Origin: Chitinophaga sancti
Lineage (GTDB): Bacteria; Bacteroidota; Bacteroidia; Chitinophagales; Chitinophagaceae
Length of the DNA: 64,000 bases
Assembly (NCBI RefSeq): GCF_034087045.1
Contig: NZ_CP139247.1
Location: forward strand, 3,188,001-3,252,000
Reading direction: 5' to 3'
In this document: positions 2,218 through 16,421 of the stretch, in pieces
Layout: each line of letters begins with the position of its first letter
Numbering within the stretch: the stretch's first letter is position 1
Notes under the pieces: generated by a model
The model's database searches: none
What the model was told of the DNA's origin: nothing
Seen by the model: the letters and a program-made list of their open reading frames with translations, nothing else
Position numbers and translations under genes: made by a program

Positions 2218-2313
2218 ATGAAAATTGTTATAAGGGACGAGACGCTGACCGGTAAGGTGGCGCATGAATTTTACCTGGAATTGGAAGCAGCCAGCATCAC
2301 TATTAGGGAATAA
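2218..2313 (+). pseudogene. Truncated small ORF (31 aa) directly before the MFS gene
   Basis: An ATG at 2218 opens a 31-codon frame beginning MKIVIRDETLTGKVAHEF and ending TAA at 2311-2313. The start resembles the N-terminus of a conserved Bacteroidota protein that is normally much longer, as I recall. It stops 4 nt before an in-frame ATG of the transporter, so it could be either a decayed gene or a short leader ORF translationally coupled to the MFS gene. Confidence 0.35.
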
Positions 2314-2317
2314 AAAG

Positions 2318-3550
2318 ATGTGCATGAAATTTAATAATACGATATCTATGGAATATAGTTTTCGCCGATGGTTTGTCTCACTGACAGCTATGATCTGTCT
2401 TGCGCTGGCAGGATTTAATTATGCAGGTATAGACGTTGCTTACAATGATATAAGGGGAAACCTGGGCGCTACCTTAAATCAGGTCAGCAGGATTACAACT
2501 GTCTATGTACTGGGTACTTTTATCATAGTTCCATTTAGCAGCTGGCTGTCTTCACAGCTGGGGCGAAGGAATTATTTAGGATGGGCGGTGATTTGTTTTA
2601 CAGTCTGTTCTTTTTTCTGCGGTAATGCCACGAATCTGAATCTGCTGATAGTGTGGCGGTTCCTACAGGGGTTGGCTGCAGGTGCAATGCTGGTATCTTC
2701 ACATACTATTCTTACAGAGAGCTGGCCGATAGAGAAACGTGCTACGTCTCAGCTATTGGTACTGACGGGACTAGGGCTGGGAGCAGCATTAGGGGATCCT
2801 ATAGCCGGGTATATAACAGATGAATTTTCATGGATCTTTATCTTTTTTGCAAATATTCCGCTGGGTATAATTGCCTGTCTGCTGGTATTTGTATTTGTGA
2901 AAAACGAATCTGATAAAAAGGATGAGGATTGGCAGGCAAGGATTCTACTGACTGTGGGAGCTTGTTGTCTGTATGCAGGATTGGAGCGATGTCAGTATGT
3001 AGGTGAGTTGAATATGCCATTGATGATATTGTTGGTGCTGGTGGGATTGACAGGGTTCATTTTATTCACCAGGAGGCAATATCATTTATTGAATATTAAT
3101 TTACGTGCCGGGTTGGTATTATTTTTATTTTATTCTTTTATTTCAGGGATTCAGATAGTTATTTCCAATTCATCCTTAAATGCTTTGACAGCATCTAATT
3201 ACGATTACTTTTGGGTGATTGCATTGATACCTATAGTGGTCATACTTATTACTACTGTATTGATACAGCGGAACCGTAAGATGATCAGGCCTGTCATTAC
3301 AGTAGGGATGTTGTTGTTGATGATTAGTTTATGGTTATCCCTGAAGATTGTGAGCTTTCCGGCAATACTGATCCTTAGTATAGCGGAGGCAATGTTATCT
3401 ATATCAATCCTTACATTAGCGCTTTCAGAGCTGGAAGGGAAGGAGCTGGGTAGGGGAGTTGCTTATTATTATGTGATTGGGAAAATAGGTGGGGTGTTAA
3501 CTACACCGTTGTATTTTGTGGTTCCTTATTTGTTGGAAGTTTTTAAATAG
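2318..3550 (+). CDS. MFS transporter, DHA2/EmrB-like
   Basis: A polytopic membrane protein of about 410 residues. The N-terminal half carries MFS signatures: LGRRNYLGW in the loop after helix 2, WRFLQGLAAGA in helix 4, and GLGLGAALGDPIAGYITD, which resembles antiporter motif C of drug exporters. It probably exports a small hydrophobic compound. Three in-frame starts are possible (2264, 2318, 2348). I chose 2318 because AGGGA lies just upstream and because 2264 lies within the preceding small ORF. It stands alone; the substrate is unknown. Confidence 0.8.
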   Translation: MCMKFNNTISMEYSFRRWFVSLTAMICLALAGFNYAGIDVAYNDIRGNLGATLNQVSRITTVYVLGTFIIVPFSSWLSSQLGRRNYLGWAVICFTVCSFFCGNATNLNLLIVWRFLQGLAAGAMLVSSHTILTESWPIEKRATSQLLVLTGLGLGAALGDPIAGYITDEFSWIFIFFANIPLGIIACLLVFVFVKNESDKKDEDWQARILLTVGACCLYAGLERCQYVGELNMPLMILLVLVGLTGFILFTRRQYHLLNINLRAGLVLFLFYSFISGIQIVISNSSLNALTASNYDYFWVIALIPIVVILITTVLIQRNRKMIRPVITVGMLLLMISLWLSLKIVSFPAILILSIAEAMLSISILTLALSELEGKELGRGVAYYYVIGKIGGVLTTPLYFVVPYLLEVFK

Positions 3551-3710
3551 TATGGTTGTAAGAAGAATTGGAAAGATTGCATAGGGTATCAGTATTCATT
3601 GACGGCCATCCTAATGCATTATTTCAAAGTCCAAAAGGTATTCAATATCTCCGAAATTCTTTAATACTACACGCTTTAATTGGCGCCTTATATTTGGGGT
3701 TATACATAAT

Positions 3711-4619
3711 TTAAGACCGGCTATACTGTTTAGGCTTCATACCGATATGCTCCTGAAACACTCTTGAAAAATGACTCAGGTTTGTAAACCCCAGCTGATA
3801 CCCTACATCCGATACCGACAGGTTCCCCTCTTTCAATAACAACGCCGCTTTTTTCATTCTATAATCCTGGTAATAACTAAAGATACTATTCCCAAATATT
3901 TGTTTAAATAATGATTTCAATTTTGTCGGACTCATATTAGCCGCCAGTGCTAAATCATTTATCACCGGTGGTGTATCCAGCTGCTCCAACATCTCCTCTC
4001 TTATTTTGTAAATGGTAGCTATATCACGGCTATTCAAGGCATACAACTGTTTTTCATCTCTCTTCTCCAATTCCATCAATAGCCTGCACACCAGTTCCTC
4101 CGCTTTTATCCGCAGGAAAAATAGTTTGAAACTTTCCGCCACAGATTCGTATACAATCTCATTGACAATATCCTGCAAGGATGGATATATCATTTGTTCA
4201 AAAAGCAAAGGTTGTGTATTCTGTAATAGTCCTTCTAATACCGGTGACTTTGCAGACAAATCAAACAAGCTCTTTAAATAATTTGAATCAACTTCGATGT
4301 TAATGGTAGAGGTATTTGTATGAATGGGGATTACAGTATCTGTATTCATACTTGTTGTAGTTATTAACACAGACGGTTGCTTTTCCGTTTCAGCGAAAAT
4401 ATGCTGGAACTTAAAAAGGATCATATTCCTGGAAGTATTGATTTCAGGGTTTTCAATCACCAGGTTTTCCTTCAGTTCATAGTTCATAATCATCATCCGG
4501 ATATGGTCATTAAAGACATATCCGGCCACATATCCCTTACCAAACTGTGCCGGAATATCTAGTCTTCTATTCTTTACTGTTGTTCCAAATAGGTGAGCGA
4601 GTGTATGAAGTACATGCAT
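3711..4619 (-). CDS. AraC family transcriptional regulator
   Basis: The 302-residue protein ends in a double helix-turn-helix AraC DNA-binding domain (about 205-302, with INDLALAANMSPTKLKSLF and DVGYQLGFTNLSHFSRVF). The N-terminal 200 residues are a ligand or oligomerisation region of no recognisable family. It is transcribed divergently from the Tet(X)-like monooxygenase gene with only 75 nt between the starts, so it probably regulates that monooxygenase/MFS/epimerase block. Confidence 0.9.
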   Translation of the reverse strand: MHVLHTLAHLFGTTVKNRRLDIPAQFGKGYVAGYVFNDHIRMMIMNYELKENLVIENPEINTSRNMILFKFQHIFAETEKQPSVLITTTSMNTDTVIPIHTNTSTINIEVDSNYLKSLFDLSAKSPVLEGLLQNTQPLLFEQMIYPSLQDIVNEIVYESVAESFKLFFLRIKAEELVCRLLMELEKRDEKQLYALNSRDIATIYKIREEMLEQLDTPPVINDLALAANMSPTKLKSLFKQIFGNSIFSYYQDYRMKKAALLLKEGNLSVSDVGYQLGFTNLSHFSRVFQEHIGMKPKQYSRS

Positions 4620-4694
4620 GTAAAAAGTCTGATACGACTATTTTTGAGTCAAATGTAGCTATTTTGTCTCTAATAGATGCCTGAACTTTGGGCC

Positions 4695-6095
4695 ATGAAA
4701 ATAGCAATCCTCGGCGCAGGTCCCGTTGGCCTGACAATGGCCATCTTGCTTCAGCAACATGGTATAGATGTAACTGTTTACGAAAGAGATAAAGACCCGG
4801 AGGCAAGGATCTGGGGAGGTACGCTTGATCTGCATGAAAGTTCAGGGCAGCTGGCTTTGAGTAGAGCTGGCTTACTGGATAGGTATTTTGATAGGGCGAA
4901 TGCTATGGGTAGGAGTATTACTGACGAGCTGGGGAATCTACTTTTTAAAGTGAAACCGCATTATGACGCGCCTGAGATAAATAGGAATGAACTCAGGAAG
5001 ATGTTATTGGAGGGGCTTAGGAGTGGGACTGTAATATGGGATCGGAAGTTTGTTGGCCTCGAAGCAGGTGGCGGTCAAGGTATTGAGGTGGGTGGTGGCA
5101 AATCTATTAAAGCAGGTGGTGGACAAGGTATTGAGGTGGGTGGTGGCAAATCTATTAAAGCAGGTGGCGGTCAAGGTATTGAGGTGGGTGGTGGCAAATC
5201 TATTAAAGCAGGTGGTGGTCAAGGTATTGAGGTGGGTGGTGGCAAATCTATTAAAGCAGGTGGTGGTCAAGGTATTGAGGTGGGTGGTGGCAAATCTATT
5301 AAAACAGGTGGCGGCCAGGGGATTGAATCAGATAGTGGTCAACATCTCGGACAAGATAGCGGCCAATATCAGCGTAATGACCAATGGCTCCTGCATTTCG
5401 AAAATGGCAATACTGCCACTGCCGATGTTGTAATCGGTGCAAATGGTGGTATGTCAAATGTCAGAAAATATGTAACGGATGCTGTAGTTGAAGATACTGG
5501 TTCCTATTTTATCCAGGGCGAAGTGTATCAACCGGAGATAAAATGTAAAGCATTCTACGAGTTGTGTGATCATGATATATTAATGACCGCAGCTGAAGGG
5601 AAACAAATCGTTGCCAATCCCCGTAATAATGGCGCGCTTACTTACAATGTCATTTGCAGGAATGTCCCTTTATTAGATTATAAGGATACGGAAAGTGTAG
5701 CCATTTTTCTTGCAGATATGTTCCCTCACTGGAATGAATGTTATAGGGAATTATTTCGTGCTACTTCATTTTTTGCAGGGTTACCTACACGAAAAATATC
5801 ATTGGATGTTCCATGGAAGACTGATCGCCCATTGCCTATTACATTGATTGGAGATGCTGCGCATTTAATGCCGCCTTTTGCAGGGCAGGGAGTGAACACA
5901 GGATTGATGGATGCGATGATATTAGCGGAAAATATTACCGGTGGGAAGTTTAAAAGTGTTGCGGCTGCGATTGAAGATTATGAGCGGAAGATGTTTGTGT
6001 ATGCTGGCGCTGCGCAGGCGGAGACAGATAGGAACGAACGGGCTATGGCGGATACCGGGTTTTCTTTTTTTAAGAGATTTACGGGTGAAGGTTAG
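4695..6095 (+). CDS. Tet(X)-like FAD-dependent monooxygenase with a tandem-repeat insertion
   Basis: A class A flavin monooxygenase of 466 residues. It has the N-terminal FAD motif GAGPVG, the segment YERDKDPEARIWGGTLDLHE, and the C-terminal GDAAHLMPPFAGQG motif that binds the flavin ribityl and diphosphate. Alignment from memory with Tet(X2) is close along the whole length, except for about 95 extra residues after DRKFVGLE: five perfect 16-residue repeats (AGGGQGIEVGGGKSIK) plus degenerate copies. Of the tetracycline contacts I recall in Tet(X2), Q192 and N226 are kept, but R213, H234 and G236 align with I, T and N, so tetracycline is doubtful as substrate. An ATG at 4677 is an alternative start. 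It heads a row with a TetA-like exporter. Confidence 0.88.
   Translation: MKIAILGAGPVGLTMAILLQQHGIDVTVYERDKDPEARIWGGTLDLHESSGQLALSRAGLLDRYFDRANAMGRSITDELGNLLFKVKPHYDAPEINRNELRKMLLEGLRSGTVIWDRKFVGLEAGGGQGIEVGGGKSIKAGGGQGIEVGGGKSIKAGGGQGIEVGGGKSIKAGGGQGIEVGGGKSIKAGGGQGIEVGGGKSIKTGGGQGIESDSGQHLGQDSGQYQRNDQWLLHFENGNTATADVVIGANGGMSNVRKYVTDAVVEDTGSYFIQGEVYQPEIKCKAFYELCDHDILMTAAEGKQIVANPRNNGALTYNVICRNVPLLDYKDTESVAIFLADMFPHWNECYRELFRATSFFAGLPTRKISLDVPWKTDRPLPITLIGDAAHLMPPFAGQGVNTGLMDAMILAENITGGKFKSVAAAIEDYERKMFVYAGAAQAETDRNERAMADTGFSFFKRFTGEG
5064..5327 (+). repeat. 48-bp in-frame tandem repeat (5 copies plus a half copy)
   Basis: Five copies of a 48-bp unit run from 5064 to 5303, and a half unit follows to 5327. 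Each encodes AGGGQGIEVGGGKSIK, itself two diverged 8-residue halves. Copies differ only by a few synonymous bases (GGC/GGT, CAA), which implies recent expansion. A degenerate continuation with the same 8-residue period reaches about 5370. Confidence 0.97.
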
Positions 6096-6195
6096 AGGAA
6101 TGATTTCATCATTAAAAGATTTACGGGTGAAACCAGATTAATGATTCAGGTATAAAGAGATTTACAAGTAAAAACCAGGATAATGATTCGGTTAG
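6073..6195 (+). repeat. 41-bp tandem repeat carrying the monooxygenase 3' end past its stop
   Basis: Three imperfect 41-bp copies start at 6073, 6114 and 6155, each built on GAGATTTACGGGTGAA followed by an AATGATT segment. The first copy contains the last codons and stop of the monooxygenase gene (stop at 6093-6095). The other two fill the gap to the MFS gene, and the third ends in the AGGAGG ribosome site of that gene. Confidence 0.8.
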
Positions 6196-6209
6196 GAGGA
6201 GATGCACCA

Positions 6210-7388
6210 ATGAAAGCCAGATTAATCATTCTACTGGCAATTGTACTTATGAATGCGGTAGGTATGTCCATCGTTATCCCGCTGCTACCATTTTTAGTAG
6301 GCCAATATTTACCTAAACAACAAGTTGTTGTAGGCATGAGTGCCCTGCTATCAGTATTTGCAGTATGTACATTTATTGCAGCCCCTATTCTAGGCGCATT
6401 GAGCGACCGGTATGGACGAAGAAATATCCTGATCATAAGCTTACTGGGTTCTGTCATCGGCTATGTCTTGTTTGGTATTGGTGGTTCGTTGTGGGTGCTT
6501 TTTGTAGGAAGAATAATAGATGGATTGACAGCAGGTAATATCAGTACGTTATTTGCCATTATATCAGATAGTACCACACCTGAAGAACGTACAAAATGGT
6601 TTGGATATATGGGCGCCGTGATGGGAATAGGTTTGTTAACAGGTCCTGCATTAGGTGGATTATTGGGAGCTATTGACTTGTCATTACCATTTTTTATGAC
6701 TGCGGGTATTATATCCCTTTCAGTAGTGGCTGTGTATTTTTGGTTACCAGAATCATTGTCAGCAGAAAAGCGTACAAAAAAATTGAATGTTGATAGTTTC
6801 AATGTTTTTTCACATTTGAAGGATTTCACGAAAATAAAATTGCTCCTGATTGCAGGTATATTGTTTTACGCAGGTCTTGAAATATTCCAGTTCAATTTTA
6901 CCATTTTCTTAAAAGATATTTTCAAATGGGGACCGGCTTATATAGGTGGCATACTTACTTTGGCTGGTGTGTGTGAAATCATTTCGAGGGCAATATTGTT
7001 GCCCTGGTTTTTGAAACATTTCAATGAGAAGCTTACTGGTAGGATGGGTTTAATCATTTTAGGATTGGGATTTATATTCATCTTAGGAAGTATGTTTTTA
7101 TCTTCTGTAATTCTTATTTTTCCCGCTGTCATCTGTATCCTTGCTGGCGAAGGATTATTTGATCCTACTTATAATAGCCTACTATCACAATCAGTTGATG
7201 AAAGCAATCAGGGAAAATTACAAGGGGTCAATCAAAGTCTGCAATCCTGCACGAGGGCATTGATTCCATTGGGTGCAGGCACTATTTATTATTACCGTCC
7301 ATTTGTGTTATACTTCATAGCAACAATCATTATCATCTTTTCAATGATTATCCATGAAAAAAGTTTTAGTCACCGGCGCCACCGGTAA
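6210..7388 (+). CDS. MFS transporter, DHA1/TetA-like drug:proton antiporter
   Basis: A 12-helix MFS protein of about 392 residues. Signatures include [11 protein letters not shown] between helices 2 and 3 and [16 protein letters not shown] (motif C) in helix 5, typical of TetA/Bcr-type exporters. The start at 6210 is preferred over 6183 because AGGAGG at 6194-6199 lies 10 nt before it. The gene follows the monooxygenase by 114 nt and overlaps the start of the epimerase by 35 nt, which implies cotranscription. It probably exports the product or substrate of its neighbours; which compound cannot be told. Confidence 0.88.
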
Positions 7389-8274
7389 AGTAGGTAGTCG
7401 CTTTGTAGCGCGACTGATAGCAAAGGGGTACGATGTTCGTGTGTTGGTACGTAAGCCCATCACTTTAAATGCAAGTGGATTAGGTGGTGATGAAGCCGCA
7501 GGTGTAGGATCAGTCATGACCGGTGATTTAAATGATCCGGCTACTATAACGCCTGCTGTAGTTGGTGTAGATGCTGTCATTCACATCGCTGCGGCTTATA
7601 ATTCTATGCATGATACGAATCTAAAAGGGACAATGTCACTGGTCAACGCAGCCATTGCTGCGAATGTTGAAAGGTTCATTTTCGTAAGCACCGCCAAAGT
7701 ATACAGAAAGGATTACGGTCGTCCTGCTAAAGAAGATGATGTGCCGGATGTACATGAAGACAATGCTTACTTTGCTGGTAAAGTTGCGACAGAGCAGGCA
7801 CTGCTTTCTTTGCATAAGGATGTGCGGATATTAAGATTAGGTTTTGTCTATGGTGATGGGGATCTTCATTTGAAAACAATGCAGGATAACTTGCGCTTAA
7901 GGACAAAGGAAGAAAACCCGGACCTAAAGGCAACGCAGGGAAACTTGCAAGCAGGAGCAATGCAGGATAACTTGCGCTTAATGGTAAAGGAAGAAAATTC
8001 CCACCCCGCTGCCAGATTACACATGGTTCACCATCTTGATGTAGCTCAAGCTTTATTGCTATTATTAAATACAGATGGGCTGAATGGTGAAATCTTCAAC
8101 CTGGGGGATGATGCACCTATGAGTTTTTATGAACTGGGGCTGGCAAATCCCACCAATGAACCACTATCAAACCCATTTGCATACATCATGGATACGTCCA
8201 AAATTCGTCGCAAGACAGGTTTCCGTCCCCTCGTGCCCGCTTACCAGGTAGCCTGTGATTTGGATATTATATAA
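7354..8274 (+). CDS. NAD-dependent epimerase/dehydratase with a repeat insertion
   Basis: An extended SDR of 306 residues with the N-terminal GATGKVG nucleotide-binding turn, a catalytic STAKVYR strand and YFAGK (YxxxK). It probably acts on a sugar nucleotide or other ketone/alcohol using NAD(P). Between [13 protein letters not shown] and [14 protein letters not shown], normally joined by a short loop in this family, about 45 residues are inserted. They contain two near-identical copies of MQDNLRL...KEEN 27 residues apart and a weaker middle copy. The start overlaps the MFS gene by 35 nt. Confidence 0.85.
7876..8002 (+). repeat. In-frame 81-bp-period repeat within the epimerase gene
   Basis: The block from 7876 (with GCAGGATAACTTGCGCTTAA) recurs at 7957, an exact 81-bp (27-codon) period. 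The intervening bases include a shorter, diverged copy (GCAGGGAAACTTGCAAG). All copies stay in frame, so the loop is lengthened without breaking the enzyme. Confidence 0.85.
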
Positions 8275-8279
8275 ATCAT

Positions 8280-8308
8280 TGTAACTTTTTTGAGATCATG
8301 CCCGTTTA
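8280..8308 (+). promoter_or_regulatory. Candidate ECF-sigma-type promoter before the RiPP precursor
   Basis: TGTAAC at 8280-8285 and CGTTTA at 8303-8308 are separated by 17 nt. This is the AAC...CGT architecture of group 4 (ECF) sigma promoters. It begins 6 nt after the epimerase stop and would give a leader of about 70 nt before the precursor ATG. A weaker housekeeping-type candidate (TTTG 8339-8342, TAATTATC 8360-8367) lies nearer the gene. Inference from motif shape only. Confidence 0.35.
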
Positions 8309-8385
8309 ATAATCGATAACACCCACGATATATTCTGATTTGAGCCGTAGCCGGGACAATAATTATCTCTTAAATTACTAATGGA

Positions 8386-8562
8386 ATGAAACTTTCTAAA
8401 TCGCTTCTTAGCGCCATCATGATTGGTATCGCCGTTCAAACTACTGTCGTTTCCTGTGGGAAAGACGAAGCGCCTAAACCCAAAAACGATCAGGAAAACA
8501 AACAAAATGTGTCTAAGCCAGATGAAAATCTGGGTAATTGCCCCGCTTGCGGAATGGGTTGA
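8386..8562 (+). CDS. Putative chryseobasin-like MNIO RiPP precursor (58 aa, C-terminal CPACGMG)
   Basis: A 58-residue ORF. Residues 1-24 form a lipoprotein-type signal (KSLLSAIMIGIAVQTTVVSC, Cys24 in a lipobox). A charged Lys/Glu/Asn linker follows, and the peptide ends GNCPACGMG. Small Bacteroidota peptides with a C-terminal CPACGMG next to a DUF692/MNIO enzyme are, as I recall, the substrate class of ChrH in chryseobasin biosynthesis, where the Cys-rich end is heavily modified. An MNIO gene follows 356 nt downstream on the same strand. The ATG at 8386 is the only start that gives the signal sequence; ATG 8381 runs into a stop. Whether the mature product is a lipopeptide or a cleaved core is unknown. 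Confidence 0.8.
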   Translation: MKLSKSLLSAIMIGIAVQTTVVSCGKDEAPKPKNDQENKQNVSKPDENLGNCPACGMG

Positions 8563-8618
8563 TTACGTGTGATGGGGCATTGCATGCATGTGTTTATTGC
8601 GTGAAATGAATTCATTGC

Positions 8619-8805
8619 GTAAAAGGGGACAATGCCTAAAATGGGGTATTATATGTAATGGGGTAATTGTGTGAAAGGGGGCAATACCTAAAATAGGGTA
8701 TTAAATGCAATGGGGTAATTGTGTGAAAGGGGGCAATACCTAAAATAAGGTATTATATGCAATGGGGTAATTACGTGAAAGAGGGCAATACCTAAAATGG
8801 GTCAA
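8619..8805 (+). repeat. 52-bp tandem repeat array between precursor and MNIO genes
   Basis: Copies begin at 8619, 8671, 8723 and 8775, each 52 bp, with a shared body such as GTGAAAGGGGGCAATACC followed by an AATGGGGTAATT segment. The last copy breaks down after about 8805, and looser fragments of the same words continue to 8900. The unit shares GGGTAATTG and ATTACGTG with the very end of the precursor gene (8531-8567), so it may derive from it. All frames carry stops. No unique spacers are present, so this is not a CRISPR array. Confidence 0.85.
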
Positions 8806-8918
8806 ATAAGTATAATAGGCCCATTACATGAACTGAGTCATTACATGCCATATGCTCATCCCCTAAAATGACTTCATTCCCTGAAATGGTTTATTTACTG
8901 AACATTGATATTTAACCG

Positions 8919-10025
8919 GTGCCCAAAGTATTATCTGCTGTCGCCTGTAATCTGGACGCAAACATCCTCGCTGCATGTTTGCCCCTGCTGCAAGAATCCC
9001 GTATTGAAGCCATTGAATGGTCATTCGATGCCTTATACAAAATTAAAGAAGTACCTGACTGGTTCAGGGAACTGCTGACAGCCTTTAGCGATGAAAATCG
9101 CCTGATCGGTCATGGTGTCTTCTTTTCTCTCTTTTCAGGGAAATGGCTACCAGAACAGGAAGCCTGGCTCTCTCATTTAAAGCAGACATCCACTGCCTTT
9201 AACTTTGATCACATCACGGAACACTTTGGCTTCATGACCGGAAAAGATTTTCACCATGGGGCACCGTTAAATATCCCTTATTCTGCATCGACGCTCGCCA
9301 TTGGCACAGACAGGTTGAAAAGAATCTACAACGCCTGCGGACGCCCTGTAGGTTTAGAGAACCTCGCCTTTTCGTATTCGCTGGACGAAGTCAAACGGCA
9401 TGGCGCCTTTCTGGATCAATTGCTTGAACCCGTGAACGGTTTTATCATCCTTGATTTGCATAACCTCTATTGCCAGCTTCATAACTTTGATCTGGCCTTC
9501 GAAGATCTGATAACCTTGTATCCATTAAATAAGGTCCGGGAAATCCACATATCTGGCGGTAGCTGGGACGATGTAGGCAACCAGACTATCAGAAGAGATA
9601 CACATGATGAAGGAGTGCCGGCAGAGGTATTTCAGTTGCTTGAAATGACAATGCGGAAATGTCCATATCTGAAATATGTTGTGTTGGAACAATTGGGAAA
9701 TGGACTCGCTACGGAGGCTAGCCGGGTGGGGTTTTATAATGATTTTTTGAAGATGCAGGAGATTGTACATAAATCCAATCATGAAACTGAGGTCAGTCCC
9801 TTTCTTCCATTACTCCCACTCTCTACAGGCCCTGCTATAGAAGACCTTCAACTCTACCAACAACAAATGGAACTCTCTTCCATCCTGGAAACAGCCCCTT
9901 CCTATGCCGCCGCCATGCAATTATTACAACACTCCTCCCTGTCCCATTCTGACTGGAAAATTGAACAATGGGACCCCTATATGATAGAAACTGCTGTTAA
10001 AATAGCCCGCAAGTGGAAGAAATGA
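8919..10025 (+). CDS. DUF692 / MNIO family multinuclear iron-dependent oxidase (ChrH-like)
   Basis: A TIM-barrel enzyme of 368 residues with the full set of DUF692 metal-site motifs: GHGVFFS (H65), HITEHFGF (H98, E101, H102), GLENLA (E147, N148), ILDLHNLY (D179, H181, N182), REIHISGG (H210) and DTHDEGVP (D227, H229, D230). The family uses two or three iron ions and oxygen to modify cysteine-containing peptides. The obvious substrate is the CPACGMG peptide encoded upstream. The start is GTG at 8919; an in-frame stop at 8913 excludes anything earlier. The C-terminal region past residue 295 is outside the core barrel. The last 27 codons are the first copy of a tandem repeat that continues beyond the stop. 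Confidence 0.9.
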   Translation: MPKVLSAVACNLDANILAACLPLLQESRIEAIEWSFDALYKIKEVPDWFRELLTAFSDENRLIGHGVFFSLFSGKWLPEQEAWLSHLKQTSTAFNFDHITEHFGFMTGKDFHHGAPLNIPYSASTLAIGTDRLKRIYNACGRPVGLENLAFSYSLDEVKRHGAFLDQLLEPVNGFIILDLHNLYCQLHNFDLAFEDLITLYPLNKVREIHISGGSWDDVGNQTIRRDTHDEGVPAEVFQLLEMTMRKCPYLKYVVLEQLGNGLATEASRVGFYNDFLKMQEIVHKSNHETEVSPFLPLLPLSTGPAIEDLQLYQQQMELSSILETAPSYAAAMQLLQHSSLSHSDWKIEQWDPYMIETAVKIARKWKK

Positions 10026-10230
10026 AACCCTGGCTCATTCTGACTGGAAATTGAACAATGGGACCCCTATATGATAGAAACTGCTGTTAAAATAGCCCGC
10101 AAGTGGAAGAAATAAAACCCTGGCTCATTCCGACTGGGAAATTGAACAATGGGACCCCTATATGATAGAAACCGCTGTTAAAATAGCCCGCAAGTGGAAG
10201 AAATAAAACCCTGGCTCATTCCGACTGGGA
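9945..10230 (+). repeat. 90-91-bp tandem repeat spanning the MNIO stop codon
   Basis: Copies start at 9945, 10036 and 10126, and a truncated fourth at 10217. The first is the 3' end of the MNIO gene including its stop. The next two are nearly identical and non-coding, with TGA replaced by TAA and a 1-base deletion near the start. The near identity implies recent duplication of a gene end. Confidence 0.95.
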
Positions 10231-10257
10231 AAATTGGTATTATATGCAGCAACGGCA

Positions 10258-10392
10258 ATGTCGGAGCTGGCATTGGCACTGCAATACACTGCGTGGATCA
10301 CTGATCCGCCAGGTGTGATGTATTCAAAAGATATCCGGGCGCCGGAGTTTCATGAAATTGATAATAAGTGCTTTACAAACTTGTGCTATTGA
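10258..10392 (+). other. Short open frame after the MNIO repeat (possible gene remnant)
   Basis: A 44-codon frame begins MSELALALQYTAWITDPPG and ends FTNLCY with TGA at 10390-10392. The frame is open for several codons upstream into the last repeat copy. It looks protein-like (helical start, charged middle) but I recognise no family. It may be the end of a gene lost when the repeats expanded, a short gene, or chance. Confidence 0.25.
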
Positions 10393-11627
10393 ATTCTTTC
10401 TAATTTCTTTCTATACTTTTCGGTGATCTCCGCCCATTCTTTTGTATGACCATACTTCGATTTGCAATAGGCATATCTTTCTTCAGTCAGGAACCAGCTA
10501 AAGATGTTTCCTACATATTCAATACCGCTATCGATCACTCTTTGCAATACGTGTTCTTTAGATACACCAGCTAGTTTGCAGTATTTTTCCAGCCATCCGC
10601 CATTGCCACTTTGTACATATAAAACCAGCAGATCTTCTGTAATATAAGTGGGGGGTATACGTGCCATTTGCCAGTCATCGCGGCGGATCAGCACCTGGAA
10701 GAGTGTTGCATCATAAAAGCGTTCAGGAATATCCTGATCGATGATAGCCCCGGTGGCGGCAGCTTTGTAGCAGAGTTCCCGGGTGATCAATGATTCAGGA
10801 ATAAAGCGTAATGCCATACCATTTTTGCTCACTATCTGATCTGCCAGTTCAGGGGTGAAGAGTGCAGGTGGAAAGTGTTCCAATGCGAAGATGGATTTTT
10901 CAGCTACCTGCATGCAAAACTCAAGTGTACGCATTTCGGGAGGTACTCTTTTCAGGTCGCGGTAGTTGTGGTTGACCTTTTGGGTCCAGTAATGAATGTC
11001 TCTCTGAGAAGGTTGTAATACATATTCACCAGCGGCCAGATCGTATCTTAGTTCTTCGAAGGTTGTGGTCAGTTTATTATCCAGTAGTGCCTCTAATCCG
11101 GAAGAGAAAGTATCATTGTCGAAATCATATTCTTCTGTATTTGCCGGGTCTTCGGCGTTATAATAATAGCCACTGATATTTTTATGTGCGGGAATGAAAT
11201 GATAATCCTCTACGATCATGACAGGTGCAGTAAATACGCCCGGGCACTTCATCCAGCCATGGTTATAGTGAAGCATAATCACTTCTTCGGCAGTCACATT
11301 ACTTTCAATATGCGTAGGCGAGCCTCCTATCAGCAAACTCCGGCATTCTACATTTCCTTTTACATAAAGGCAGGGGCCGTAGTCTCCTTCTTCATTGATG
11401 ATATTGCCATTTACGCGTAGGTTGCCATCGATGATATAACCATGTATCTCCTGATCATATTCCATCATAAAATGATCATCCAATACCAGGTCTCCTTTAT
11501 GCAGATAAAATTGAGTATCAGTTTCTACCTGATCTTCAAACATTTCCCTGCTTTCATACATGTGCTCATCAATGCTGTATAATGCAATGGCATCCTTTAG
11601 CGTGATCATCTCAAAAATCGTCTTCAT
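10386..11627 (-). CDS. Hypothetical protein: beta-helix-like N-terminus with DUF4116-like repeats
   Basis: A 413-residue cytoplasmic protein. Residues 35-140 have regularly spaced short strands (LVLDDHF, YIIDGNLRVNGNII, CLYVKGNVECRSL), as in polymer-forming right-handed beta-helices. The C-terminal half (about 225-380) holds repeats such as TLEFCMQVAEKSIFALEHFP and ITRELCYKAAATGA that resemble DUF4116. Its start overlaps the end of the YcxB-like gene by 4 nt (ATGA), so the two are cotranscribed and probably coupled in translation. The pairing of a membrane protein with a repeat protein could suit an immunity or stress role, but nothing shows it. Confidence 0.6.
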   Translation of the reverse strand: MKTIFEMITLKDAIALYSIDEHMYESREMFEDQVETDTQFYLHKGDLVLDDHFMMEYDQEIHGYIIDGNLRVNGNIINEEGDYGPCLYVKGNVECRSLLIGGSPTHIESNVTAEEVIMLHYNHGWMKCPGVFTAPVMIVEDYHFIPAHKNISGYYYNAEDPANTEEYDFDNDTFSSGLEALLDNKLTTTFEELRYDLAAGEYVLQPSQRDIHYWTQKVNHNYRDLKRVPPEMRTLEFCMQVAEKSIFALEHFPPALFTPELADQIVSKNGMALRFIPESLITRELCYKAAATGAIIDQDIPERFYDATLFQVLIRRDDWQMARIPPTYITEDLLVLYVQSGNGGWLEKYCKLAGVSKEHVLQRVIDSGIEYVGNIFSWFLTEERYAYCKSKYGHTKEWAEITEKYRKKLERIQ

Positions 11628-15146: not shown

Positions 15147-16421
15147 TTGGACCAATCAATTAGTTTAAACAAGTTTATCAGTGATACAGGGTATTGTTCA
15201 CGTCGTGAGGCGGACAAACTCATCACTTCCGGTAGGGTATTGCTGAATGATCGTCCGGCGTCTTTGGGTAACCGTTATAAACCGGGAGATACGGTGGAAG
15301 TGGATGGGAGCCTGATCACTGCGGCAAAGAAGGAAAAATGTGTATACCTGGCGTTGAATAAGCCACCGGGTATAACGACGACGACTGAATTGCATATCAA
15401 GGATAATATTATCAGCTTTGTGAATTATCCAAAGCGGATTTTTCCTATTGGGAGGCTGGACAAGGATTCTGAGGGACTGATCTTTTTGACGAATGATGGT
15501 GATATTATCAATAAGATCCTGCGGGCAGCGAATAATCATGAGAAAGAGTATATCGTAAAGGTGGATAAGGCGATTGATACTGCATTTTTAGACCAGATGT
15601 CTAAGGGGGTGCCTATACTGGATACGCGAACATTGCCTTGTAAGGTGCAGATGATGGGGCGACAGACTTTCAGGATTACCCTGACGCAGGGGCTGAACAG
15701 GCAGATCAGAAGGATGTGTGAATACCTGGGATATGAGGTGATTGGGTTACAACGTGTGCGTATTATGAATGTGAAGCTGGATAAGCTGCCGTTAGGGAAA
15801 TGGAGGCATTTGACGGAAACAGAGCTGGCGAATTTGAATGAAAGTATAGCGGATTCCAGTAAGGTGAATGAGAAGGAGAAAAAGGCGGTGGAAGAGGAGG
15901 GATTTGGGGCGTTGATACCGAATAGGCATAAGATGAAGGCGGGGAAGGCAGATGGAGAAGGTAAGCGGTTGGGTAAAGGTAAGGCAGATGGTGAAAGTAA
16001 GAGATTGAGTAAAGGTAAGGCAGATGGTGAGGGGAAGTCGGTTGGGAAAGGCAGGTCAGAAGGAGATGGGAAAGCAGTGGAGAAGGGGAAGGCAGGTGGA
16101 GAAGAGAAGCGGTTTTGGAAAGGTAGGTTAGTGGGAGGAGGAAAGCTGTTGGGTAAAGCGGATGGTGAGGGGAAACGGTTTGGGAAGGCGGATGGTGAAG
16201 GAAAGCAGTTTGGTAAGAGTAAGCCTGCAGGAGAAGGGAAGCAATTGGGGAAAGGTAAATCTGTGGGAGAAGGAAAGCAATTTGGTAAGAGTAAGCCTGC
16301 TGGTGAAGGGAAACGAATTGGTAAAAGTAAACCGGCAAGTGGAGGAAAGAAAACTACCCAGCCCGGGAAAAGCAAACCTGCCAGCGGTGGTAAAAGAACT
16401 GGCAATCGAGGCAGACGATGA
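15147..16421 (+). CDS. rluF: 23S rRNA pseudouridine synthase, RluF-type, with an expanded repeat tail
   Basis: Residues 6-55 form an S4 RNA-binding domain (SLNKFISDTGYCSRREADKL). Residues 65-230 form the RsuA/RluF catalytic domain with GRLDKDSEGL (catalytic D105) and GLNRQIRRMCEYLG. RluF acts on a uridine near position 2604 of 23S rRNA. The start is TTG at 15147; the next upstream in-frame codons reach a stop at 15132 and no ATG occurs until far inside. From about residue 266 to 424 the protein is a Gly/Lys-rich tail made of 12-residue units such as GKADGEGKRLGK, far longer than in usual family members of about 240-300 residues. Confidence 0.9.
   Translation: MDQSISLNKFISDTGYCSRREADKLITSGRVLLNDRPASLGNRYKPGDTVEVDGSLITAAKKEKCVYLALNKPPGITTTTELHIKDNIISFVNYPKRIFPIGRLDKDSEGLIFLTNDGDIINKILRAANNHEKEYIVKVDKAIDTAFLDQMSKGVPILDTRTLPCKVQMMGRQTFRITLTQGLNRQIRRMCEYLGYEVIGLQRVRIMNVKLDKLPLGKWRHLTETELANLNESIADSSKVNEKEKKAVEEEGFGALIPNRHKMKAGKADGEGKRLGKGKADGESKRLSKGKADGEGKSVGKGRSEGDGKAVEKGKAGGEEKRFWKGRLVGGGKLLGKADGEGKRFGKADGEGKQFGKSKPAGEGKQLGKGKSVGEGKQFGKSKPAGEGKRIGKSKPASGGKKTTQPGKSKPASGGKRTGNRGRR
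15945..16418 (+). repeat. Degenerate 36-bp in-frame repeats encoding the RluF tail
   Basis: About a dozen variable units of 24-36 bp, many beginning GGTAAGGCAGATGGTGAA or a close variant, encode GK-x-DGEGKR-type peptides. They produce a strongly basic, disordered tail of about 158 residues. Long open frames on the other strand here are by-products of the repeat composition. Confidence 0.85.

Follow-up and report, generated by a model that had tools for sequence, protein, structure and literature searches.

A probable minimal DAG-RiPP locus in Chitinophaga sancti, with a putative surface-export signal and a conserved promoter-like element

The window analysed here is a stretch of 64,000 nucleotides from Chitinophaga sancti, and all coordinates refer to it unless another locus is named. 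On its forward strand, a short open reading frame at 8386..8562 starts with ATG and encodes a peptide of 58 amino acids, MKLSKSLLSAIMIGIAVQTTVVSCGKDEAPKPKNDQENKQNVSKPDENLGNCPACGMG. The original prediction had described it as a short frame with a CPACGMG end, which is confirmed. The family model NF050125 (chryseobasin-related MNIO class RiPP peptide) covers the whole peptide with 87.1 bits over a cut-off of 40, and the frame is annotated as a RiPP precursor of the ChrA/DybA/ChsA type. A similarity search with the precursor returned 67 proteins at E<=1e-3, its own counted in. The two nearest homologues are 88% identical to it, and a C. sancti protein named chryseobasin-related by NCBI, presumably ChsA, is 78% identical. 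The CPACGMG core occupies residues 52-58 (8539..8559, forward strand), and its C52, C55, G56 and G58 are invariant across the 67 aligned sequences. The peptide thereby carries the CPxCGxG ending of DAG-RiPP precursors of the DybA/ChsA type, and from its sequence and the chemistry of homologues (PMC12636315) the core is the predicted site of the formation of a macrocycle and hydantoin with a loss of 4 Da. For the C-terminal fragment PDENLGNCPACGMG the computed [M+H]+ is 1377.523, or 1373.492 if it is modified by -4 Da.

The precursor also contains a lipobox, VVSC with Cys24, recognised by motif only, which provides the third Cys characteristic of DAG-RiPPs. Its presence had been predicted correctly, but it is not the oddity it was taken for, as PMC12636315 reports a lipobox for third-Cys precursors, which make up the majority in other Bacteroidota genera. 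Among the 85 precursors of the 80 named Bacteroidota loci listed (out of 232 relatives found), 75 pass a strict lipobox rule; nine of the ten that fail still have a Cys where it is expected, the exception being one precursor of locus L113.

Downstream on the same strand, the frame at 8919..10025 starts with GTG and encodes a protein of 368 amino acids. It is annotated as an MNIO (DUF692) maturase of the ChrH/DybH subfamily with a TIM-barrel-like core followed by C-terminal helices. PF05114 is matched with 101 bits (cut-off 25), and the top NCBIfam model is NF050165 (MNIO_ChrH) with 394 bits, under its 600-bit cut-off, a score which would be expected for the DybH-type branch and is no proof of it. 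These scores, together with the adjacent position, identify the ChrH-subfamily MNIO that accompanies a DAG-RiPP precursor. The original prediction had proposed that peptide and enzyme be compared with family models; the matches to NF050125 and PF05114 bear out both assignments, and chryseobasin is supported as the nearest class, with the peptide falling in NF050125 and the MNIO nearest to NF050165. The MNIO of Dyadobacter crusticola is 61% identical to that of the window. The window spans 3188001-3252000 of a genome of 8.32 Mb, in which a single PF05114 gene and a single NF050125 peptide were found.

The DUF692/MNIO motifs claimed for this enzyme are indeed present. In an alignment of 81 MNIO sequences (the window and the 80 loci listed of 232 relatives), twelve positions are identical in all 81, namely H65, E101, H102, E147, N148, D179, H181, N182, H210, D227, H229 and E257, while D230 is identical in 80 and H98 in 78. 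These fourteen positions we take to be candidate metal ligand or active-site positions. An AF2 model built from 17 sequences (pLDDT 80.4, pTM 0.83, with residues 105-115 and 217-228 below 50 pLDDT) has alternating strands and helices, and then helices at 310-325, 329-337 and 353-367. The C-terminal helical domain of DAG-RiPP MNIOs is thus found here by AF2 secondary structure only; ChrH is likewise described with C-terminal helices after its TIM barrel (PMC12636315). A profile search of PDB sequences with the MNIO matched 8hci and 3bww, both DUF692.

The pairing of precursor and MNIO is far beyond chance. Seventy-nine genomes of the genus were searched, and 39 of them gave a ChrH-type match (E below 1e-50), which is fragmented in G064. 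The genus has 39 open reading frames with the ending CPxCGMG and a stop, all of which lie 36-378 nt upstream of a ChrH-type match on the same strand. This ending is present in 36 of the 39 genomes with a ChrH-type match and in none of the 40 without one, 22 of which hold only weaker matches to other MNIOs. The three remaining ChrH-type genomes carry CIACGMG (G050, G014) or CPACSMG (G043) at the equivalent place, so that a precursor is present in 39 of 39. The conservation of the peptide beside MNIO orthologues, on which the original prediction depended, is hence borne out by 36 genomes with CPxCGMG and three with variants. A CPxCGxG precursor is also found upstream of the MNIO in 75 of the 80 loci listed of 232 relatives; four others carry variants (CIACGMG twice, CPACSMG, CLSCGMG), and at L111 no precursor was seen within the 700 nt read. 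A search of the window's own genome for CPxCGxG followed by a stop gave a single match, at the locus, and no candidate substrate elsewhere. Sixteen further such matches in the genus are unlinked; one has an internal stop and none is CPxCGMG.

Some of the loci differ in the number and the cores of their precursors. Two precursors in tandem before one MNIO are seen in L079, L082, L088, L106, L119, L121, L123 and L125, and three in L113. Cores of the CIACGMG, CPACSMG or CLSCGMG form adjoin ChrH-type MNIOs in L110, L114, L093, L112, L350 and L351. In L316 (G442; 6688-8920), four lipobox-less precursors, as read by eye, stand directly before a ChrH-like MNIO, with the ends CGKCGKG, CEACGRG, CPGCGMG and CPPCGMG and with MK[LI]S-like N-termini. 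One enzyme is here accompanied by several divergent cores, and the precursors of L314 (G381) are alike.

The lipoprotein signal peptide (residues 1-23; 8386..8454, forward strand) is unusually conserved in the genus, where it is as conserved as the MNIO itself. At MNIO identities of 0.65-0.75 the signal peptides of the precursors are 0.72 identical (224 pairs), as against 0.41 for GldD (118 pairs) and 0.40 for GldB (59 pairs) at mature identities of 0.65-0.75; the yardsticks differ, being MNIO identity for the precursor and the own mature part for the Gld controls. In the bin of 0.75-0.85 the value is 0.83 versus 0.39 and 0.52 (GldD and GldB) and 0.72 for GldK, which indicates that conserved signal peptides occur outside the precursor too. 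Sequences without a lipobox by a home-made rule had been dropped (GldD 9/30, GldB 2/30, precursor 1/30, the last being L020). The linker of the precursor is 0.25, 0.27 and 0.45 identical in the MNIO identity bins below 0.8 and 0.70 identical above, and pN/pS of the signal peptide is about 0.1 (24 codons, 78 pairs, no control set). The first background sets comprised only 78 lipoproteins with 14 homologous pairs. A further control of 34 reciprocal-best lipoprotein pairs (4 x 400 kb) gave a mixed picture, with signal peptides 0.58 identical at mature identities of 0.7-0.8 (9 pairs), and 0.89 and 0.87 above 0.8 (15 pairs). In the wider Bacteroidota the signal peptide of the precursor falls below the enzyme, with 0.48 at an MNIO identity of 0.58 and 0.56 at 0.63.

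Directly at the lipobox Cys24, the residues C-G-K-D-E (8455..8469, forward strand) form a putative lipoprotein export signal (LES). The optimal signal of Capnocytophaga is C-X-K-(D/E)2-X (PMC5080379), and C-G-K-D-E agrees with its C-X-K-(D/E)2 part, a consensus which is that of Capnocytophaga and maybe not that of Chitinophaga. C-X-K-[DE] is found in 25 of 29 precursors of the genus and in 17 of 95 other predicted lipoproteins, the latter taken from 4 x 400 kb and called by a home-made lipobox rule; the full C-X-K-[DE]2 is found in 12 of 29 and 7 of 95. As the sequences are related, p-values for the C-X-K-[DE] enrichment overstate their independence. C-X-K is missing from three of the 29. Among SusD-like proteins, which a home-made rule selected as a surface set, C-X-K is found in 14 of 14 (10 distinct) as against 31 of 81 other lipoproteins, but C-X-K-[DE] in just 2 of 14; hence, the lysine may be the telling part in this genus. 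Beyond the Chitinophagaceae set, C-X-K is limited to 16 of 53 precursors and is seen in none of the Dyadobacter ones listed. From the sequence, surface display of the peptide can thus be suggested. The main text of PMC12636315 makes no mention of the surface or of a lipoprotein export signal.

Between the epimerase gene and the precursor, just past the epimerase stop, lies the promoter-like element TGTAAC-N17-CGTTTAA (8280..8309, forward strand). The form [TG]GTAAC-N16/17-CGTT is present 62-135 nt upstream of the start in all 29 loci of the genus with a located precursor (L023, whose precursor start was not located, is omitted), 26 of which have TGTAAC; the spacer varies between 16 and 17 nt while the element is kept. 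It is also found in the window and in 21 of 21 named loci of the Chitinophaga group, whose species overlap with the set of 29. Of 74 named loci, 16 have the strict form, every one of them in the Chitinophaga group; it is missing from all 56 loci outside that group and precedes 3 of 1230 background open reading frames. The upstream genes differ in the three loci listed and the element is kept. An AAC/CGT look is the hallmark of ECF-sigma promoters, and the element, which is conserved across species, is accordingly worded here as a putative promoter of the ECF-sigma type. A conserved block of the 5' leader, AGCCGTAGCCGGGACAATAA (8343..8362, forward strand), was delimited by alignment with L070, L063 and L068; by eye it is recognisable in about half of 19 upstream regions and absent from the others.

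Across the 79 genomes, TGTAACN15-17CGTTTAA gives 362 sites (4.6 per genome) versus 56 for the reversed pattern. The window's own genome has 2 sites versus 3 control matches of the reversed pattern, so that the argument there depends on conservation and not on the count. Thirty sites were read, the first listed in each of G001-G030, among which L326 is the precursor-MNIO site itself. Among the open reading frames that follow them, three with lipoprotein-like starts encode a serpin, an FKBP and a di-haem peroxidase. A further 11 encode lipoproteins that by eye resemble one another, with acidic residues in a row close to the lipobox Cys, and four encode copies of a 130-residue protein that Pfam does not match; at other sites no gene was convincing. 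The second site of the window's own genome (6861872; L349, 1562-1957) precedes a 132-residue protein without a Pfam match, and proteins like it follow the motif in L318, L327, L329 and L343. By eye, an ECF-like gene lies within about 10 kb of 9 of 21 Chitinophaga loci versus 18% of random 21-kb windows, and SusC-like and FecR-like genes lie near 7 of 21 each versus 18% and 14%, all three being weak differences. Promoter, regulation and transcription go unmentioned in the main text of PMC12636315, and no Bacteroidota ECF motif was found in those parts of the literature that were accessible to the search. The export signal and the promoter element are therefore additions beyond that main text.

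Upstream of this element, a Tet(X)-like FAD monooxygenase (4677-6095), a Tet(A)-class MFS exporter (6183-7388) and an NAD-dependent epimerase/SDR (7354-8274, by family match) follow one another on the forward strand. The first two come closest to families of tetracycline monooxygenases and tetracycline efflux proteins, though with scores under the cut-offs. These genes exist as predicted, but a tailoring or export role for them does not hold up: the trio was considered as part of the cluster and rejected, since among the 80 loci listed of 232 relatives, 70 of which include 4.3 kb or more of sequence before the MNIO, its homologues lie near the MNIO only in L070. This is the sister strain [Flexibacter] sp. 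ATCC 35208, which is collinear with the window elsewhere too. C. silvisoli has instead a block of ECF-sigma, FecR, SusC and SusD-like genes after its MNIO (names by eye). A 48-bp tandem repeat at 5062-5326 lengthens the monooxygenase of the window to 472 amino acids, compared with 370 in L070.

The gap between precursor and MNIO (8563-8918) measures 356 nt and is repeat-filled, as had been predicted; a 52-bp tandem repeat at 8614..8802 (TRF, 3.7 copies) occupies 189 of these nucleotides. The repeat is missing from the gaps of L070 (202 nt, with only a weak 18-bp repeat) and of C. silvisoli L063 (24 nt). From the motif to the start of the MNIO profile there are 378 nt, whereas the 39 linked distances of the genus have a median of 60 nt and none is larger; the wide gap is a lineage-specific expansion and no family feature. 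At 9937..10232 a 91-bp tandem repeat (TRF, 3.3 copies) duplicates the 3' end of the MNIO gene past its stop, and it was not found in L070 or L063. Within 400 kb around the locus there are 21 tandem arrays (period at least 15, score at least 100) versus 11, 4 and 2 in three relatives, so repeats look typical of this genome and its nearest relatives and not of the system. The tandem repeats at 15945-16349, which form the lysine/glycine-rich C-terminal tail of what by eye is a pseudouridine synthase, fit this tendency to minisatellites. L070 has its own 54-bp tandem repeat inside the MNIO gene (8261-8411 of that locus), which reads 404 amino acids versus 368. In 8250-10300 neither sigma-70 promoters (6 vs 5.3) nor terminators (2 vs 2.1) exceed their numbers in shuffled sequences. 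The expanded gap and the duplicated 3' end could weaken expression.

Taken together, the locus is very probably a minimal DAG-RiPP, that is, a lipidated and putatively surface-shown peptide modified by an MNIO and presumably expressed from an ECF-type promoter. Expression would start at the ECF-sigma-type promoter directly upstream of the precursor. Still in the cytoplasm, the MNIO would then take four electrons from the C-terminal CPACGMG (-4 H), so that its two Cys would be linked in a macrocycle beside a hydantoin and one free thiol would be left. The Sec/lipoprotein pathway (Lgt, LspA, Lnt) would subsequently cut at Cys24 and lipidate it. With C-G-K-D-E following the lipid, the peptide would be routed to the outside of the outer membrane, and its 35 residues would display the modified tail on the cell surface. 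The basis of this scheme is divided: sequence, co-occurrence, conservation and motifs come from the present analysis, while the chemistry and the lipidation would carry over from homologues. Surface display and ECF-sigma control of the peptide are what we infer from the former.

CPxCG is a common motif which often binds metal, and the heptapeptide could in principle be an unmodified, zinc-ribbon-like knuckle with the MNIO acting on something else. This is most improbable, given the strict co-occurrence of CPxCGMG with the MNIO in genomes of the genus and the chemistry demonstrated directly on the identical heptapeptide of homologues, even as a GFP fusion (PMC12636315). An S-methylated, chryseobasin-type product (+10 Da) would agree with the CPACGMG motif and with an enzyme family common to ChrH, which methylates with SAM (PMC10214503), and ArlAH yielded both the S-methylated and the unmethylated product (PMC12636315). 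Methylation is nevertheless quite unlikely here, as the MNIO of the window stays under the ChrH cut-off, ChsAH and DybAH give -4 Da (PMC12636315), and the precursor and MNIO are 78% and 61% identical to the presumed ChsA and the D. crusticola enzyme, respectively.

The other two alternatives concern the extent and the state of the locus. The monooxygenase, exporter and epimerase adjoin the precursor on the same strand and are retained in the sister strain, as might be expected if a larger cluster used them for tailoring and export; but the one listed locus that shares them is collinear, the promoter-like element separates them from the precursor, and the monooxygenase and exporter resemble tetracycline types. 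Lipoprotein export is not known to need an MFS pump, which likewise speaks against a larger cluster, and this explanation is very unlikely. Decay of the locus, in which the repeats of the gap and of the MNIO 3' end would have uncoupled or damaged the pair, would account for the largest precursor-MNIO distance in the genus and for repeats that the two closest loci lack. It is unlikely all the same: both frames are intact, all twelve fully conserved candidate ligands are kept, the precursor remains as close as stated to its two nearest homologues, and in the sister strain, too, the gap is long and the MNIO gene contains a repeat, with the frames open.

For the DAG-RiPP reading, a physiological role most likely lies at the envelope or surface, under an envelope-stress-like regulon. 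It is possible, if doubtful, that the peptide is displayed at the surface and belongs, with the serpin, the FKBP and the acidic-start surface lipoproteins, to a small envelope regulon under an ECF sigma, and that its signal peptide is conserved for a second job besides routing. Such a job might be to delay export until the MNIO has acted, to dock to the enzyme, or to provide a signal as a released peptide. The discoverers of the class call the function of the lipidated macrocycles unclear (PMC12636315). The likely surface-export signal and the conserved sigma-type promoter make this question testable through the location of the peptide and the inducing condition.

Among known systems, lipoprotein-signal bufferins and oxazolins (e.g., NedA; PMC12636315, PMC12452194) are likewise MNIO-modified and carry lipoprotein signals, but they involve a partner protein and their cores differ in motif, oxazolins having EGKCG. 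Chryseobasin (ChrA/ChrH; PMC10214503) shares the CPACGMG core and the MNIO subfamily, whereas ChrA has a signal peptidase I signal in place of the lipobox, and its product is S-methylated. The chr cluster adds ChrI (DUF1772), ChrE and ChrP (PMC10214503), none of which is among the precursor, the MNIO and the six neighbours scanned in the window (2264-11627), where DUF1772, ribulose-phosphate epimerase and M42 peptidase gave no match. The models for chryseobasin proper likewise stay below their cut-offs, NF050124 with 14.2 bits versus 50 and NF050165 with 394 versus 600.

The closest systems are ChsAH of Chitinophaga sancti and DybAH of Dyadobacter crusticola, with which the class of DAG-RiPPs was described in a preprint of November 2025 (PMC12636315). 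In that work DybH, acting by itself, converts CPACGMG to a macrocycle with a hydantoin and leaves a free thiol, at a loss of 4 Da; ChsAH gives an equal shift, and the heptapeptide is enough for recognition. The lipidation, from which the name derives, was demonstrated for DybA, which is triacylated at the lipobox Cys (diacylglyceryl and N-acyl). Like these systems, the window has a precursor and MNIO pair with a lipobox Cys, a C-terminal CPACGMG and a fused C-terminal helical domain, and no partner protein was seen; it differs from them in the 356-nt repeat-filled gap and the 91-bp repeats at the 3' end of the MNIO gene. With 78% precursor identity to C. sancti and 61% MNIO identity to D. crusticola, the pair belongs to this class already described, to which the locus adds one further member.
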